This document shows positions 1 through 20,380 of a stretch of 20,380 bases of DNA, piece after piece. The notes under the pieces are model-generated. The model was not told the DNA's origin and made no database searches. It saw only the letters and a list, made by a program, of their open reading frames with translations. Source of the DNA: a virus; the IMG/VR virus record IMGVR_UViG_3300042891_000324, positions 1 through 20,380 of that record; one strand, written 5' to 3'. Position numbers and translations under genes: made by a program. Within the stretch, counting starts at the first letter, position 1, and every line of letters begins with the position of its first letter.

Positions 1-402
1 CCTAACCTTCCGCATGTACGCCGCCTGATACAGCGCATAGTCCTGGACAGACAAACGCCAGTCGTCGTAGTACGCATGGCCCGTATGCTCACGACTGCAT
101 GTCGTAGGTCTTGACCTTGCGACCTTCATGCCGAACGCATTGTTGGTCTGCATAAATCGATTAGATGTAAAGTGACCACTCTCCAATATAGCCTGAGCGA
201 ACGCGATGTGCGGAAACTTAATACCGCACTGCTTCACGTAGCTATAAAAAACTTCAGGGCTGAAAGAAGGATGATTGTGAACAACGGCCTTCTTCCCCTC
301 AACGATCTTAGTTACTACTATTGTCTCCTTACTCTTATAGGATAAGAGCACAAATGATATTAGCCCTACAGCGACTATCAAATTATTTCGATGATAAACC
401 AT
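1..402 (-). CDS. Glucosaminidase-type peptidoglycan hydrolase, N-terminal part (cut by window edge)
   Basis: The reverse strand reads open from an ATG at 402 to the window edge (134 codons). Residues 1-22 contain a hydrophobic stretch (NNLIVAVGLISFVLLSY) that fits a signal anchor. From about residue 50 the protein matches the pattern of the FlgJ/LytG-type glucosaminidase domain (GH73 family): a helix with AQAILESGHF, where the Glu is the expected catalytic acid, followed by SNRFMQTNNAFGMK. Such enzymes cut the GlcNAc-MurNAc glycan strand of peptidoglycan. In a phage this could serve lysis or cell-wall penetration, and a second, different cell-wall enzyme lies at 15891. Its start overlaps the small membrane gene at 378-533, which suggests a coupled pair. 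The assignment is from motifs read by eye and the C-terminus is not in the window. Confidence 0.75.
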   Translation of the reverse strand, partial: MVYHRNNLIVAVGLISFVLLSYKSKETIVVTKIVEGKKAVVHNHPSFSPEVFYSYVKQCGIKFPHIAFAQAILESGHFTSNRFMQTNNAFGMKVARSRPTTCSREHTGHAYYDDWRLSVQDYALYQAAYMRKVR

Positions 403-9190: not shown

Positions 9191-9217
9191 TATATTTGAC
9201 AAAATTTAATCAAATAT
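9191..9217 (+). promoter_or_regulatory. groEL-groES promoter within an inverted repeat
   Basis: TATATTTG (9191-9198) matches TAnnTTTG; TTTC at 9168-9171 is a near match for the -33 box with 19 bases between. ATATTTGA (9192-9199) and TCAAATAT (9210-9217) form a perfect 8-bp inverted repeat that overlaps both the -7 box and the ATG at 9216. A repressor bound here would block both promoter and start. No CIRCE-type element was found. Confidence 0.6.
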
Positions 9218-10814
9218 GGTAGTAAAACAGATATTTTTAGATGAAAATGGACGTAAGAAACTGAAAAACGGCATCGACAAGATATCAGCAGCAGTTTCAT
9301 CCACTTTAGGCCCATCAGGGCAGACGGTCTTAATAGAGTCCGAGCACCACATAGGAGGTGTTACCGTTACGAAGGACGGTGTGACCGTCGCACGATCAAT
9401 CAATTTGTACGATCCAGTGGAGAACTTAGCTGTTCAGCTGGTAAGGGAGGCAGCATCGAAGACAGCGTCGTCGGCAGGTGATGGCACTACGACTAGTATT
9501 GTGCTTACCAAGGCTATTATCGATGCGTTCGAGGACTACTTTGATGTAGAAAAGCACAGCAAGACTGAGGTATTGAGACAGATACAGTCTATTGCAGACG
9601 ATGTAGTGAAGGAGCTTGGACGTATGTCTAAGAAGGTAAGTGGTAAGAGACTGCTTGATGTAGCTACGATTTCTGCGAACAACGATCCAATTGTAGGTAA
9701 GTTGATCGCTGATGTGTACTCGCAGGTTAGTCATGTTATTGTAGAGAACTCTAAGACAACGAAGACATACTCTGAGGTTATCAAGGGTATCCGTGTTGCC
9801 AGGGGGTGGACATCTAAGTACTACGTGAACGATCACAAGAAGATGGAGTGCGTGATGGAGGATGCGTATGTGTTACTTACGGATCATGAGATTAATAATC
9901 TATCTAACATAGAGAACGTACTGGCTCATGTGTTGAAGGAAGGTAAGCCATTGCTTATTGTAGGTCAGTTGTCAGCTCAGGTTGCAGCTACACTTAACAT
10001 GAACGTTGTTCAGGGCAAAATCAAGGTGTGTAACATTATTCCACCAAACTTCGGGTATCGTAAGGACGAGATGATGACTGATATATCACGATCTCTTGGT
10101 GCTCACTACTACTCAGAGTCTACTGGTGACAACTTAGCGTTGTGTACAGTTTCAGGATTGGGTCGAGCGAAGAAGATCATCGTAGGTCAGGACAGCACTG
10201 TTATCGTAAGACCTGACGGCACTGATGAAGATCTAGATGCGTATGTGAAGGAGCTTAAGCTTAGTAAGTGGGAGATTACTTCTGAGGAAGAGATCAAGTT
10301 CATGGACGAGCGTATTGCGTCAATCTCAGGAGGTGTAGGAATGATCTACGTCGGAGCGAGTTCAGATATCGAGCAGAAGGAGTTGAGGGACCGTGTTGAC
10401 GATGCAGTGCTTGCGGTGAAGGCAGCGATTGAGGATGGTGTACTTCCAGGTGGAGGCGTAGGGCTAGTGAACGCAGTTGCGTTTGTAGCATCTAAGGCGA
10501 TGTTGAATGGAGCTCCGTCTGTTGCTATGGATATTATGTCACAGGCATGCGAGCAGCCGTTCCATAAGATCTGTGAGAACGCAGGTGTTGATGGCAACGA
10601 GGTTCTTGACTACGAGAAGTTCTTTGACGATGGTAGTGTAGGTGTTGGGTATAATGTGAAGGAGAAGAAGACAGGCGATATGGTGAAGATGGGTATTATA
10701 GATCCAGCGAAGGTGACGAAGAACGCACTTAAGAACGCTGTATCTGTTGCTACTACGATCCTTAGTACGAATGCGATAATCACAAATGTAAGAGAGAATG
10801 AAAGCGTTAAATAG
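9216..10814 (+). CDS. groEL: Phage-encoded chaperonin GroEL (Hsp60)
   Basis: A full-length group I chaperonin of 532 residues (bacterial GroEL is about 540-548). The equatorial ATP site is intact: LGPSGQ (31-36), TKDGVTVA (52-59), GDGTTT (88-93), GGG in LPGGGVG (410-416), and MGIIDP with the nucleotide-contact Asp at about 496. The catalytic Asp equivalent to E. coli D398 is D396 in RVDDAVLAVKAAIEDG. The apical domain (about 190-375) is present but diverged, with GWTSKYYVN (197-205) in the substrate-binding helix region. The Gly-Gly-Met tail is missing; the protein ends NVRENESVK. It would fold phage proteins, perhaps the capsid or fibres, in the host cytoplasm. groES overlaps its last 17 bases. 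Confidence 0.95.
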   Translation: MVVKQIFLDENGRKKLKNGIDKISAAVSSTLGPSGQTVLIESEHHIGGVTVTKDGVTVARSINLYDPVENLAVQLVREAASKTASSAGDGTTTSIVLTKAIIDAFEDYFDVEKHSKTEVLRQIQSIADDVVKELGRMSKKVSGKRLLDVATISANNDPIVGKLIADVYSQVSHVIVENSKTTKTYSEVIKGIRVARGWTSKYYVNDHKKMECVMEDAYVLLTDHEINNLSNIENVLAHVLKEGKPLLIVGQLSAQVAATLNMNVVQGKIKVCNIIPPNFGYRKDEMMTDISRSLGAHYYSESTGDNLALCTVSGLGRAKKIIVGQDSTVIVRPDGTDEDLDAYVKELKLSKWEITSEEEIKFMDERIASISGGVGMIYVGASSDIEQKELRDRVDDAVLAVKAAIEDGVLPGGGVGLVNAVAFVASKAMLNGAPSVAMDIMSQACEQPFHKICENAGVDGNEVLDYEKFFDDGSVGVGYNVKEKKTGDMVKMGIIDPAKVTKNALKNAVSVATTILSTNAIITNVRENESVK

Positions 10815-11061
10815 TTTTATTGTAGTTAAGCCTAGGGAGATAGAGCAGAAGCAGACTGCGAGTGGGTTGTTGTTAACTGGCTCAGAGACTGTGAAGCAGA
10901 GATATCAGGAAGCTGATGTAGTTGAGGTCAGCTCACTTGTTGACGAGCACATTAAGAAGGGTGACGTTATAGCGTATGATGCTGTTCAGGGTCATGACTA
11001 TCGGAGTGGAGATCAGACGTACCGTATAATTCAGTATCGAGACGTTGCCTTGATTCTTTAA
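10798..11061 (+). CDS. groES: Phage-encoded co-chaperonin GroES (Hsp10)
   Basis: An 87-residue protein (bacterial GroES is about 97). It has the family layout: NSFIVVKPRE (5-14), a mobile loop with QKQTASGLLLTGSETVKQ (17-34) in which LLL takes the place of the GroEL-contacting IVL, then IKKGDVIAYDAVQGHDY (52-68), and the final strand YRDVALIL. The roof loop appears shortened, as in phage co-chaperonins. It should cap the adjacent GroEL. The order groEL-groES is the reverse of the bacterial groES-groEL. The 17-base overlap implies coupled translation. Its 3' 95 bases are also coding on the other strand for the winged-helix gene. Confidence 0.9.
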   Translation: MKALNSFIVVKPREIEQKQTASGLLLTGSETVKQRYQEADVVEVSSLVDEHIKKGDVIAYDAVQGHDYRSGDQTYRIIQYRDVALIL

Positions 11062-11554
11062 ACTCCTCGTTAAAATTTTTAACGGCTATGGCGAAGACCT
11101 TGTCTGTGAATCCTGCTTTCTTATTAAACATAGGGTTTCTACTTGGTTTTACAGGTATTGGTTCTTCGCCGTTTAGCTTCTTATAGATAGAGTTTATCAT
11201 CTTCTTGGCTTTGAAGCTGAGCTCGTACAATCTAGATTGGTTCTTAGTAGGTTCACGGAATGTTCTGATGAGCCCTTTTTCTTTTAGTCTAGCCATCCTG
11301 TATGTGTCCCACCTGAAGATGTTGTCGTATGAGTTGAACGTAGTCTGGTTGAACAGCATCTCGTCGTGCAGGAAGAAAAGTATCTCAAGCTCTATCATTG
11401 TCACTTTATAGTAACGACATGCCCAGTACCTGATCACACGCCAGTACTTCATGTAGTTATGTGCTGGGTATTCTCTAACGATTACTTTCTGGAGTGGTCT
11501 AGGTCTAATTTTTATAACGTACTTATCTTTTTTCTTATCCTTGCTTGTTCTCAT
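10967..11554 (-). CDS. Winged-helix DNA-binding protein, likely regulator (195 residues)
   Basis: The only minus-strand gene in the right block. After a basic N-terminus (KDKKKDKYVIKIRPRP) a winged-helix domain covers about residues 37-120: YWRVIRYWACRYYKVTMIEL (helices 1-2), FRWDTYRMARLKEKGLIRTF (recognition helix and wing start), NQSRLYELSFKAKKMINSIY (wing and last helix). It resembles MarR/PadR-type folds. The following SRNPMFNKK (138-146) is a conserved tail I recognise from uncharacterised Bacteroidota phage proteins. The last 32 residues are encoded antisense to groES. Its promoter is back to back with that of the fibre gene within a palindrome, so it probably represses itself and controls late genes. 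Confidence 0.8.
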   Translation of the reverse strand: MRTSKDKKKDKYVIKIRPRPLQKVIVREYPAHNYMKYWRVIRYWACRYYKVTMIELEILFFLHDEMLFNQTTFNSYDNIFRWDTYRMARLKEKGLIRTFREPTKNQSRLYELSFKAKKMINSIYKKLNGEEPIPVKPSRNPMFNKKAGFTDKVFAIAVKNFNEEFKESRQRLDTELYGTSDLHSDSHDPEQHHTL

Positions 11555-15890: not shown

Positions 15891-16565
15891 ATGTTAGATA
15901 TAAAAAAAATCAAGCAAGTTCCGTTAAAAGAAAGCCAGTACATTAAGGAATCTACTAAAAAGCTTCAGATAGTACTTCACCACACAGCAGGTAACTCATC
16001 AGGTCCAGCAACGATCAAGATGTGGGACAACGACGATAGAGGTCGTATTGCGACGTGTATTACTATCTCTGGTAAAGGTCTTTCTAGAGACACATACGAT
16101 GGAGAGATCTGTCAGGCGTTTGCATCTAAGTTTTGGGCATATCACCTAGGAATTAAGCCTGATGTATTCAGAGCTAACGGTCTTCCGTACCGATCACTAG
16201 ATCCTATCGCTATAGGTATTGAGATATGTAACTGGGGTCCACTTACAAATAAGAATGGTAAGTACTATAACTATGTAGATCGATTAGTTCCTGCTGATCA
16301 GGTATGTGAGTTAGCTGTTCCTTATAAAGGTCACAAGTACTACCACAGGTATACTGACGCACAGATAGAGGCTGTTAGAGATCTTCTTGTTTACTGGAAG
16401 AACTTATGGAACATTCCAATAGAGTATAAGGAGGAAGACATGTGGAGAGTTTCTAAGAACGCACTGTCGGCAGTGCCAGGTGTGTACAGCCACAACTCTT
16501 ACCGTAAAGATAAGTCGGACATCTACCCATGTCCACGAATGATTGAAATGTTAAAATCACTGTAA
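15891..16565 (+). CDS. N-acetylmuramoyl-L-alanine amidase endolysin (Amidase_2 / T7-lysozyme type)
   Basis: The protein has 224 residues with no signal peptide, so export depends on the holin. The zinc-amidase pattern is clear: IVLHHTAGNS (27-36, first His ligand), a core strand PIAIGIEICNWG (105-116), and HNSYRKDKSDIYPCP (201-215), where His201 is the second ligand and Asp210 or Cys214 the third, with Lys208 as the catalytic Lys equivalent. It cleaves the bond between MurNAc and L-Ala in peptidoglycan. It follows the holin and spanin-like genes with a 1-base gap. It differs in chemistry from the glucosaminidase at the left edge. Confidence 0.9.
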   Translation: MLDIKKIKQVPLKESQYIKESTKKLQIVLHHTAGNSSGPATIKMWDNDDRGRIATCITISGKGLSRDTYDGEICQAFASKFWAYHLGIKPDVFRANGLPYRSLDPIAIGIEICNWGPLTNKNGKYYNYVDRLVPADQVCELAVPYKGHKYYHRYTDAQIEAVRDLLVYWKNLWNIPIEYKEEDMWRVSKNALSAVPGVYSHNSYRKDKSDIYPCPRMIEMLKSL

Positions 16566-17476: not shown

Positions 17477-17691
17477 TAATTCGCAAGATTTCCATAGGGA
17501 CAGATCTTTTAAACGCCATGCACTTCCAGGTTGGAAAGCCTGTTATGGGTGGTGAGTATACCGTTTTTGACATCATGAGAACTGATGAAGGGCTTTACGA
17601 TATATGGGTTGAGAAAGATGGAGAGGCTGTTAAATGGAAGTCTATTGGTAGTACAGTTCCAGTATCTATCGAGTATAATATAAACTTCTAA
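17473..17691 (+). CDS. Small conserved protein (72 residues)
   Basis: MIIRKISIGTDLLNAMHFQV is followed by GKPVMGGEYTVFDIMRTDEG and a strand-rich end VPVSIEYNINF. The opening (IIRKISIGxDxxNAMHFxVGxxV) and the ending (PVSIEYNIxF) form a pattern that I recognise from marine Bacteroidota phages in the same position before the terminase. It is likely a small beta domain. It is coupled on both sides by ATGA and TAATG overlaps. Function is unknown. Confidence 0.7.
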   Translation: MIIRKISIGTDLLNAMHFQVGKPVMGGEYTVFDIMRTDEGLYDIWVEKDGEAVKWKSIGSTVPVSIEYNINF

Positions 17692-18257
17692 TGAAGTCAC
17701 CACACTACTTTATTGTGCGTCCTCATCAAGGTGTACGATATAATGCATCCAAGAACTTGAATGGGAAGGATTTCATTATGTCCTCATCTCAAGAGGACCA
17801 CAGATATACAAATCGAATAGGGGTGGTTGTTGCTACCCCTATTGGTTATTCAGGAGAAATATCTGAGGGAGATCTTGTTGTAGTTCACCACAATGTATTT
17901 AGGTTGTATTACGATATGAAGGGTAACGAGCGTTCAAGTTGGAACTACTTCAGAGATGATATCTTCATGATAGAGCCAGATCAGTTGTACTTGTACAAGA
18001 AAGAATTCTCTGTAGAATGGAGTGCTCCACGTCCTTATTGCTTTGTACGTCCAATGCTTCATGAGAATGAGGATGGAACTATATCTACTATAAACGTAGA
18101 GTCAGAGCTTAAGGGTGTTGTTGAGTATATACCAGAAGGAGAGGATGTTAAGGTTGGAGACGTTGTCTCATTCAAGCCTGAATCTGAGTACGAGTTCAAC
18201 ATCGATGATACTAAGTTATACCGAATGAAATTAAGTAGTCTATGCTTGAAAATCTAA
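17691..18257 (+). CDS. Tandem GroES-fold-like protein next to the terminase (188 residues)
   Basis: Two halves each read like a GroES barrel. In the first half HYFIVRP (5-11) is followed by a long loop, RIGVVVATP (42-50), ISEGDLVVVHHNVF (57-70) and DQLYLYK (97-103). In the second half YCFVRP (116-121) is followed by a loop, LKGVVEYIPEG (140-150), VKVGDVVSFKP (153-163) and LYRMKLSSLCLKI (176-188). Compare GroES strands: FIVVKP, GxVVxVG, VKxGDxVxF and a final ILAVI-type strand. Key difference: the mobile loop lacks the usual GIVL motif. It may be a chaperonin cap specialised for the phage GroEL, or the fold may serve a structural role. It lies 6 kb from groEL-groES and overlaps the small terminase gene. 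Confidence 0.6.
   Translation: MKSPHYFIVRPHQGVRYNASKNLNGKDFIMSSSQEDHRYTNRIGVVVATPIGYSGEISEGDLVVVHHNVFRLYYDMKGNERSSWNYFRDDIFMIEPDQLYLYKKEFSVEWSAPRPYCFVRPMLHENEDGTISTINVESELKGVVEYIPEGEDVKVGDVVSFKPESEYEFNIDDTKLYRMKLSSLCLKI
17780..17843 (+). other. Two adjacent strong hairpins inside the tandem GroES-like gene
   Basis: GTCCTC (17780-17785) pairs with GAGGAC (17793-17798). AATAGGGGT (17816-17824) pairs with ACCCCTATT (17835-17843). The second is a perfect 9-bp stem unusual for an otherwise AT-rich coding stretch. They fall in the loop and first GVVVATP strand of domain one. Confidence 0.5.
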
Positions 18258-18541
18258 GAGATAAGAAGGACAGAGTACTACGTGCAGCAGAGAAGTCTGT
18301 TGACGAGCTTATTAAGGTACTCGAACAGCAAATTGTAAACTACTCTATTGACGACGACTTGTCAGTGGATAAGATGAAGAATGCCGCTGCTGCTAAGAGG
18401 CTTGCATTTGAGGATGCACTATCTATACTTGAGCGTATAGATGCAGAGCGTGCGAAAGAGACTATTGGTTCTATGCCAGTTGTGTTATCTGGTAGTGGAG
18501 GATTTGCAGAGGGAAGGGCAAGAAGCAATGCGAAGAAATAG
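18242..18541 (+). CDS. Probable terminase small subunit (99 residues)
   Basis: The protein is helical throughout: MLENLRDKKDRVLRAAEKSV, then the central DLSVDKMKNAAAAKRLAFED (40-59) and ALSILERIDAERAK, with a flexible end (LSGSGGFAEGRARSNAKK). The LSxDKMKNAAAxKRLAxxDAxxIL block is typical of short proteins encoded directly before the large terminase in Bacteroidota phages. Size, helical nature and gene order fit a small terminase subunit that recognises phage DNA and regulates the motor. It overlaps the upstream gene by 16 bases and the large terminase by 14. The identification is by context and pattern. Confidence 0.65.
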   Translation: MLENLRDKKDRVLRAAEKSVDELIKVLEQQIVNYSIDDDLSVDKMKNAAAAKRLAFEDALSILERIDAERAKETIGSMPVVLSGSGGFAEGRARSNAKK

Positions 18542-20380
18542 TAAATATGATCTATATAAAATAAACAACGATCACGTAAACAAGACTGCTCGTTCGACAA
18601 AGAACGCTGCTAAGTCTTGGCAGTATGGATATGATCGTGACTATGACTTAATTATTATTTCGAAAGATGGTACTATTGGCGACATATATTACATTAATGG
18701 TCTTAATATCGCACTTCCTAGGACGCCGAAAGATTTGGAGGTTGGGGAAAACAGATGGATGCCACATGAGTACCCGAAAGAACTTCAGAAAATAAAGTCT
18801 TCGTTCGAGTGGTCAAGACGTGATAATGTATTTAAATCACAGTGGGTTGACTACATCGAGAATGAGTTTGACAGACGTGAGTTTGGGTACTGGTTCATGA
18901 ACGATGGTGAGCCTACTTACATGACAGGTACACACTATATGTATCTTCAGTGGTCTAAGATAGATATCGGTCTTCCTGACTTCCGTGAATCCAACAGAAT
19001 ATTCTACATCTATTGGGAGGCATGCAAGGCTGACGAACGTTCTTTTGGTATGTGTTACCTTAAGAACCGTCGTAGTGGTTTCTCGTTCATGAGTTCAGGT
19101 GAGGTGTCAAACTTAGGTACAATATCTAAGGACTCTAGGCTTGGTATACTTTCTAAGACTGGTCCTGATGCCAAGAAGATGTTTACAGATAAGGTTGTTC
19201 CAATAGTTAGGAACTACCCATTCTTCTTTAAGCCTGTTCAGGATGGTATGGATAATCCAAAGACAGAGCTTTCGTTCAGGGTTCCAGCTTCAAAGATTAC
19301 TAAGAAGAGTATGAATGAGGAAAAGACTGACGATATCGAAGGTCTTGACACAACTATTGACTGGAAGAATACAGCTGACAACTCATACGATGGTGAAAAG
19401 CTTTTACTATTGGTGCATGATGAATCTGGAAAATGGCTCAAGCCTGATAACATATTGAACAACTGGCGTGTAACAAAGACATGTCTTCGACTAGGATCTA
19501 AGGTAATTGGTAAGTGTATGATGGGTTCTACATCAAACGCACTAGAGAAGGGTGGTAACAACTTTAAGAAGTTGTACATGGACTCTAATCCTAAAATTAG
19601 ATCAGCGAACGGTCAGACTAAGTCAGGATTATATAGTCTATTCATACCTATGGAGTGGAACTTTGAGGGGTATATCGATCAGTATGGATTTCCAGTGTTC
19701 GAAGATCCAAAGACTCCAGTTGTAGGTATAGATGGTGAGATGATAGACAACGGTGTTATTACATATTGGAATAATGAGGTTGCCGCACTTAAGAATGACT
19801 CTGATGCACTTAACGAGTACTACAGACAGTATCCTAGGACTGAGTCACATGCGTTTAGGGATGAGTCTAAGCAATCACTGTACAACTTATCTAAGATATA
19901 CCAACAGATAGACTACAACGACTCACTTATTAAGGAGCGTGTACTAACTAAGGGTAACTTCCATTGGAAGGATGGAGTTCTAGACTCTGAGGTTATATGG
20001 ACTCCAGATCCAGGAGGTAAGTTTACAGTATCGTGGTTACCACCACCTGAGTTAAGAAACAAAGTAATAACAGATAGGCATGGGAAGAAGCGTCCTGCAA
20101 ACGAGCACTTAGGTGCATTTGGATGTGACCCTTACGATATATCAGGAACTGTAGGTGGTGGTGGATCAAACGGTGCTCTTCACGGACTTACTGGATTTCA
20201 TATGGAGCCTAATGCTCCAACGAATCAGTTTGTATTAGAGTACGTTACACGTACACAGACAGCGGAGATATTCTTTGAAGACGTACTTATGGCCATTATA
20301 TTCTACGGTATGCCAATACTTATTGAGAACAATAAGACTAGACTACTGTACCATATCAAGGACAGAGGGTATAGGGGTTA
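18528..20380 (+). CDS. terL: Terminase large subunit, 5' part (cut by window edge)
   Basis: ATG at 18528 is chosen because the later ATG at 18548 is out of frame; the frame then stays open for 617 codons. The ATPase half shows a deviant Walker A, LKNRRSGFS (178-186), a Walker B with LLLLVHDE (292-299) and a coupling motif MMGSTSN (331-337). The nuclease half begins at about 525: GCDPYD (533-538) supplies the first RNase H-fold acidic residue, and PILIENNKTR (596-605) the next. The order, and the layout of the long N-terminus (EPTYMTGTHYMYLQWSKID), match large terminases of Bacteroidota phages. It packages genomic DNA into proheads and cuts it. The C-terminal nuclease end is missing. Confidence 0.9.
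   Translation, partial: MRRNSKYDLYKINNDHVNKTARSTKNAAKSWQYGYDRDYDLIIISKDGTIGDIYYINGLNIALPRTPKDLEVGENRWMPHEYPKELQKIKSSFEWSRRDNVFKSQWVDYIENEFDRREFGYWFMNDGEPTYMTGTHYMYLQWSKIDIGLPDFRESNRIFYIYWEACKADERSFGMCYLKNRRSGFSFMSSGEVSNLGTISKDSRLGILSKTGPDAKKMFTDKVVPIVRNYPFFFKPVQDGMDNPKTELSFRVPASKITKKSMNEEKTDDIEGLDTTIDWKNTADNSYDGEKLLLLVHDESGKWLKPDNILNNWRVTKTCLRLGSKVIGKCMMGSTSNALEKGGNNFKKLYMDSNPKIRSANGQTKSGLYSLFIPMEWNFEGYIDQYGFPVFEDPKTPVVGIDGEMIDNGVITYWNNEVAALKNDSDALNEYYRQYPRTESHAFRDESKQSLYNLSKIYQQIDYNDSLIKERVLTKGNFHWKDGVLDSEVIWTPDPGGKFTVSWLPPPELRNKVITDRHGKKRPANEHLGAFGCDPYDISGTVGGGGSNGALHGLTGFHMEPNAPTNQFVLEYVTRTQTAEIFFEDVLMAIIFYGMPILIENNKTRLLYHIKDRGYRG

Follow-up and report, generated by a model that had tools for sequence, protein, structure and literature searches.

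Phage-encoded chaperonin components have been described in several combinations. T4 gp31 and RB49 CocO are phage-encoded co-chaperonins, but T4 and RB49 depend on the GroEL of the host; gp31 lacks roof loops and accommodates the larger capsid protein gp23 (PMC6318259). Phages EL, OBP, and AR9 encode a GroEL, and the characterised phage chaperonins function without GroES (PMC9598537, PMC7185714). Some phages possess both GroEL and GroES homologs (PMC7185714), and one group of Bacteroidota phages from the sea, comprising 36 genomes, commonly encodes GroEL (PMC5332604). In the Flavobacterium Elemovirus phages (NC_055854 and relatives), groEL is followed by groES, and a gene annotated as a 180-aa "co-chaperonin GroES" lies directly before terL, the gene for the large terminase subunit. 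Maribacter phage Panino (PP540027), for which both groEL and groES were reported (PMC11590407), carries groEL, then a short groES, and a long GroES-like gene before terL; its short groES (28129-28395) is annotated merely as a hypothetical protein. The Cellulophaga Pervagoviridae (phi38:1, phi40:1, and Calle) likewise have groEL, groES, and a long gene before terL, and cpn10 is listed as a Pervagoviridae core protein (PMC8776804). In plastids, Cpn20 of chloroplasts and apicoplasts consists of two GroES domains head to tail. The chloroplast Cpn20 occurs alongside a single-domain co-chaperonin, and a seven-fold hetero-oligomer of chloroplast Cpn10 and Cpn20 is thought most likely (PMC5780408).

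The locus studied here lies in a stretch of viral DNA of 20,380 bases, the entire IMG/VR record IMGVR_UViG_3300042891_000324, hereafter the window. Near-copies of its sequence were found on records of up to 56 kb, and we regard the window as a fragment of a tailed Bacteroidota phage of roughly 50-65 kb. The nearest deposited genome is that of Caudoviricetes sp. ctfjg026 from Manatee Spring (MW202828), a 60.9-kb circular phage genome with 68% identity in the terminase and 46% in GroEL. The terminase is also about 40% identical to those of Flavobacterium and Maribacter phages, and the host, judged from these relatives, most likely belongs to the Bacteroidota. The window also encodes two peptidoglycan-degrading proteins: the ORF at 1-402 (minus strand), truncated by the start of the window, is glucosaminidase-like, and that at 15891-16565 (plus strand) encodes an Amidase_2 protein.

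A preliminary description of the window, made from the sequence alone, had reported an intact groEL-groES pair with a 17-base overlap and in reversed order. The genes and their overlap were recovered as described, and a convergent gene that had gone unmentioned was recognized as a third member of the cassette across the lineage. The features of this region are:

9216-10814, plus strand: groEL, group I chaperonin of 532 aa (PF00118, 201 bits; phrog_5725, 437 bits; ATP-site residues conserved)
9477-9494, plus strand: GDGTTT nucleotide-binding motif of GroEL, residues 88-93 (sequence and alignment)
10401-10403, plus strand: catalytic Asp396 of GroEL, equivalent to E. coli D398 (sequence and alignment)
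10798-11061, plus strand: groES, single-domain co-chaperonin of 87 aa (PF00166, 44.5 bits; AF2 model; Foldseek)
10798-10814, plus strand: groEL/groES overlap of 17 bases (sequence; likely translational coupling)
10846-10896, plus strand: mobile loop of GroES with SGLLLTG (sequence, alignment)
10967-11554, minus strand: convergent third cassette gene, 195 aa, overlapping the 3' end of groES (phrog_17028)

The groEL product matched Cpn60_TCP1 (PF00118) far above the cut-off of 34 bits, with positions 1-488 of the 490 in the profile aligned. When it was aligned to E. coli GroEL (MG1655), all 16 nucleotide-binding and hydrolysis positions compared were identical (E. coli numbering: T30, L31, G32, P33, D52, G53, V54, D87, G88, T89-91, D398, G415, I493, and D495). 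The GGM tail was missing, and the apical domain had diverged most: against GroEL from E. coli and from Bacteroidota it was 32-34% identical, and the other domains were 33-56% identical. The earlier statements that the ATP-site motifs are kept, that the Gly-Gly-Met tail is lacking, and that the apical domain has diverged were thus borne out. In the hydrophobic apical groove, the site for clients and GroES, W199, Y203, Y204, L237, and M264 were conserved and three positions were altered (L234E, L259A, and V263N). The inter-ring contact positions R452, E461, S463, and V464 all differed from those of E. coli, so that the ring state of the phage GroEL is uncertain and single-ring behaviour is possible.

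The groES product matched Cpn10 (PF00166) over residues 2-85 of 87 with a cut-off of 21 bits, and it also matched phrog_3188. Its AF2 model had a pLDDT of 79, and the top solved structures retrieved by Foldseek were Cpn10/GroES structures, T4 gp31 included. The mobile loop reads SGLLLTG, compared with GGIVLTG in E. coli, in agreement with the reported replacement of IVL by LLL, and in the model pLDDT dropped at residues 17-19 and 24-33, in keeping with a flexible loop. The roof hairpin is typical of bacterial GroES, is absent in gp31-type lids, and is not needed in a phage co-chaperonin. In alignments, the roof-hairpin region of the window protein was shorter than in bacterial GroES, and some relatives retained part of it; we read the short GroES as lacking all or most of the hairpin.

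These features bear on the possibility that the phage GroEL works without a co-chaperonin, as in EL, OBP, and AR9, and that the co-chaperonin genes serve the host GroEL. The altered inter-ring and groove positions would fit such a protein, as would the behaviour of the characterised phage chaperonins. The GroEL proteins of EL, OBP, and AR9 are very distant from that of the window. No Cpn10 match was found, however, when the genomes of AR9 and Pseudomonas phage HHBS47_1 were scanned, whereas groES adjoins groEL here and usually overlaps or adjoins it in the related loci. We consider this explanation improbable. The window lineage instead offers a testable counter-case to the lid-free chaperonins, with a genome of moderate size and culturable relatives (Elemovirus, Callevirus, and Panino).

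Gene order was compared in 80 related IMG/VR loci fetched with a GroEL profile, 71 of which had a neighbouring groES. In 70 of these 71, groEL preceded groES, and the sole exception was a host-like sequence with 38% identity. The profile was also used to fetch 80 bacterial loci; 74 of these had a neighbouring groES, which came first in 73. The order reported in the preliminary description was therefore confirmed, but the novelty it implied was not, since groEL also precedes groES in Elemovirus, Panino, and ctfjg026, and the groEL-first pair is already known from deposited genomes. The abstract of Marine et al. 2017 (ISME J) reportedly says that the order of viral chaperonin subunit genes follows GroEL phylogeny; if so, the reversed order had already been described. 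Other phages have groES first, including immuto, DAC19, and Callevirus, the last with one intervening ORF.

The identical 17-base overlap was present in 15 of the 70 loci with the groEL-groES order, and the two genes are probably translationally coupled. A homologue of the third gene adjoined groES on the opposite strand in 64 of the 70 loci and overlapped it in 61. This gene gave no significant match in the Pfam search, and its homologue in MW202828 was deposited as "repressor protein"; the product is possibly DNA-binding and may regulate the groEL-groES cassette. Similarity to the deposited phages was graded. The cassette is shared with ctfjg026. In Elemovirus, GroEL is only 36% identical and the third gene is more diverged, and in Panino one small ORF separates groEL from groES and the third gene lies about 1 kb off. 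The Pervagoviridae differ in having groES before groEL with one ORF between, and their GroEL falls outside the phage clade of the window. The comparison of loci points to groEL-groES as an old inherited phage cassette that usually travels with the convergent third gene.

The origin of groEL was examined by phylogeny, for which the preliminary description had proposed that a phage-only clade would speak for an old phage chaperonin. Such a clade was found: 11 phage sequences grouped together with 100% support, and when Elemovirus and Panino were included, a branch supported at 100/99 separated all 13 groEL-first sequences from all bacteria. The exact placement of Elemovirus and Panino within the clade is unsure because both have long branches. 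The best bacterial match was 39% identical, with none higher among the 80 best retrieved. These results indicate that groEL is an old phage gene rather than a recent host capture. A capture retained as cargo and no longer important to the phage might explain why the GC content of groEL (0.455) and groES (0.436) is somewhat above that of the window (0.390), and some other phages did capture host groEL, as judged from the nesting of DAC19 GroEL inside Bacteroidota and the grouping of two Vibrio phages with E. coli. Given the tree, the low bacterial identity, the conservation of the cassette in many records, and the dN/dS of groEL and groES (0.06-0.15 in the measured pairs), a recent or cargo-like capture is barely credible here. 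The GroEL on CALPIT020000291, titled Streptomyces griseus, also grouped with Bacteroidota, and that bin is probably contaminated or mislabelled.

The unusual part of the locus is not the reversed order but a double-length, lid-like protein encoded beside terL. The preliminary inventory of chaperonin genes was correct for the groEL-groES pair, but it listed a single co-chaperonin and overlooked this second GroES-like gene. The features of this region are:

17691-18257, plus strand: tandem co-chaperonin-like gene, 188 aa (phrog_13932; AF2; Foldseek)
17691-18005, plus strand: predicted domain 1 of the tandem protein, residues 1-105
18006-18254, plus strand: predicted domain 2 of the tandem protein, residues 106-188
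18242-18541, plus strand: ORF of 99 aa between the tandem gene and terL (weak phrog_20415)
18441-20378, plus strand: terL, large terminase subunit, cut by the window end (phrog_6681, 9.5e-140)

The tandem protein matched phrog_13932, "co-chaperonin GroES," at 3.6e-21. Its AF2 model (pLDDT 77.5, pTM 0.75) was rich in beta-strands, with two loops modelled at low confidence (residues 21-40 and 121-140), which may be the counterparts of GroES mobile loops; no IVL-type tripeptide was evident. In Foldseek, the sole PDB match with E < 0.001 was 7ekq_R (E 2.5e-5, TM 0.57), which spanned both domains over 205 columns and whose molecule name is "Cpn20 co-chaperonin subunit," from an algal chloroplast. 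The likeness to this plastid protein is one of fold: there was no direct sequence match between Cpn20 and the window protein, and a search of the PDB with a profile of the phage tandem family gave no hit up to E = 1, not even to Cpn20.

The C domain matched GroES profiles in hhalign at 1.9e-10, and its score against a combined GroES profile was reached by none of 1,000 shuffles. The N domain of the window protein had a weak sequence match of its own to GroES. However, the N domain of a full-length homologue, phi18:3 gp096, scored 18.1 bits against the short phage GroES profile, compared with 7.1 for the best of 1,000 shuffles, and retains a recognisable loop, KTESGLEL. For the window protein, Pfam matches stayed below the threshold, whereas phi18:3 gp096 and phi40:1 gp089 matched Cpn10 above the cut-off. 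Profile comparison of the N and C halves gave a match too weak to prove duplication, so that the assignment of the N domain rests on the predicted fold and on phi18:3. We are moderately sure that the tandem protein consists of two GroES-fold domains head to tail. Domain 1 also has features unlike GroES: in the window lineage its loop is highly conserved but not GroES-like (R16, Y17, S31, S33, E35, D36, and R42), and an invariant VHHNVF motif at residues 65-70 is possibly a metal- or partner-binding site. For the tandem gene, dS could be estimated in two pairs, which gave dN/dS values of 0.06-0.07; like groEL and groES, the gene is under purifying selection. A role as a known virion protein was also considered and was unsupported, phi40:1 gp089 having no virion-proteomics annotation (an absence, and hence weak evidence). 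A description of the phage tandem architecture was not found in the literature searched, which did not take in Marine et al. 2017; the Elemovirus record is silent on it, and in ctfjg026, which shares the gene, it is labelled "hypothetical protein."

Relatives of the tandem gene were found in about 190 viral contigs (191 candidate IMG/VR stretches). The gene lay just upstream of terL in every fetched locus holding both genes. Of 24 records that carry this groEL and reach at least 40 kb, 21 had the tandem gene; conversely, nine of the 10 records that were fetched via the tandem gene and reach at least 50 kb had groEL. Five deposited genomes with the tandem gene were scanned, and each had a separate short groES as well. 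The complete genome of phi18:3 has a short and a long co-chaperonin gene, the long one before terL, and no GroEL anywhere, so that the link between the tandem protein and a phage GroEL is not obligatory. Together with the linkage to terL, this indicates that the tandem gene stays with the terminase module whether groEL is present or absent and whichever the order of the chaperonin genes.

We put the probability at about 0.6 that the phage makes its own GroEL-GroES cage to fold virion proteins and that the tandem protein acts as a second lid or as part of a mixed one. The phage GroEL and short GroES would assemble into an ATP-driven cage with large virion proteins as clients, much as gp31 serves T4 gp23 together with host GroEL; the reduced GroES roof, as in T4 gp31, would open the top of this cage. 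The tandem protein would cap the phage or host GroEL for morphogenesis clients. For the related phage phi38:1, GroEL has been found both within infected cells and in samples of free virions (PMC13288928).

A different role for the tandem protein is suggested by its position. With GroEL-GroES functional as a pair, the tandem protein could be a repurposed GroES-fold factor that acts in morphogenesis or packaging with the terminase, for instance as scaffold, partner of the terminase, or adaptor for specific clients, and not as a GroEL lid. The strict linkage of its gene to terL rather than to groEL, its presence in phi18:3 despite the lack of GroEL there, and the conserved non-GroES-like loop and HHNVF motif of domain 1 all favour this role. 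On the other hand, phi18:3 gp096 and phi40:1 gp089 have remained recognisable as Cpn10, a short GroES accompanied the tandem gene in every deposited genome scanned, virion proteomics provided no annotation for gp089, and in MaF61 the gene directly upstream of groEL encodes a different tandem Cpn10. We hold this role to be a tentative possibility.

In Flavobacterium phage MaF61, ORF64 (912-1475 of the fetched locus) encodes this other tandem Cpn10, of 187 aa, and the phage has a third, separate Cpn10, a single one, besides it. Its arrangement resembles that of the window in pairing a tandem with a single Cpn10, but ORF64 is unmatched by phrog_13932 and does not lie beside terL. Tandem lids beside a chaperonin therefore do occur in phages.

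The manner in which a tandem protein could serve as a lid is a further question, for which we infer a mixed ring as one candidate. Three tandem subunits and one single subunit, for example, would supply seven domains, a composition of the kind proposed for chloroplast Cpn10 and Cpn20, which would explain the joint occurrence of both kinds of lid. It is conceivable, though doubtful, that a large clade of Bacteroidota phages has in this way evolved a plastid-like mixed lid of one single and several tandem GroES subunits, with the tandem subunit tied to the packaging module and directing the cage to morphogenesis clients. The strict terL linkage, the non-GroES-like loop and HHNVF motif in domain 1, and phi18:3 all weaken the mixed lid. 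If the tandem protein is a lid of either kind, a two-domain co-chaperonin would have evolved in phages separately from chloroplasts, perhaps twice when MaF61 is considered, and the lineage would help to examine how a lid with an even number of domains can match a ring of seven, and for what reason a lid gene travels with the terminase.

The match to 7ekq_R raises one more reading, as this chain belongs to the CPN11/20/23 cap, which associates with the Clp core in Chlamydomonas chloroplasts (PMC8889267). By analogy, the tandem protein might cap a protease ring such as ClpP. We judge this highly improbable, since the match reflects the common tandem fold, phage GroEL is present in nine of the 10 large tandem-gene records, and no protease link was seen.

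A separate observation concerns a related phage groEL on IMGVR_UViG_3300042465_001631, in which about 320 aa are inserted in frame, precisely at the junction of GDG and TTT in the ATP site. The insert has intein-like ends (VLTPFGW...VGDTI near the start and HN/T at the end) and a LAGLIDADG_3 match of 5e-4, and is a putative intein in a phage GroEL.
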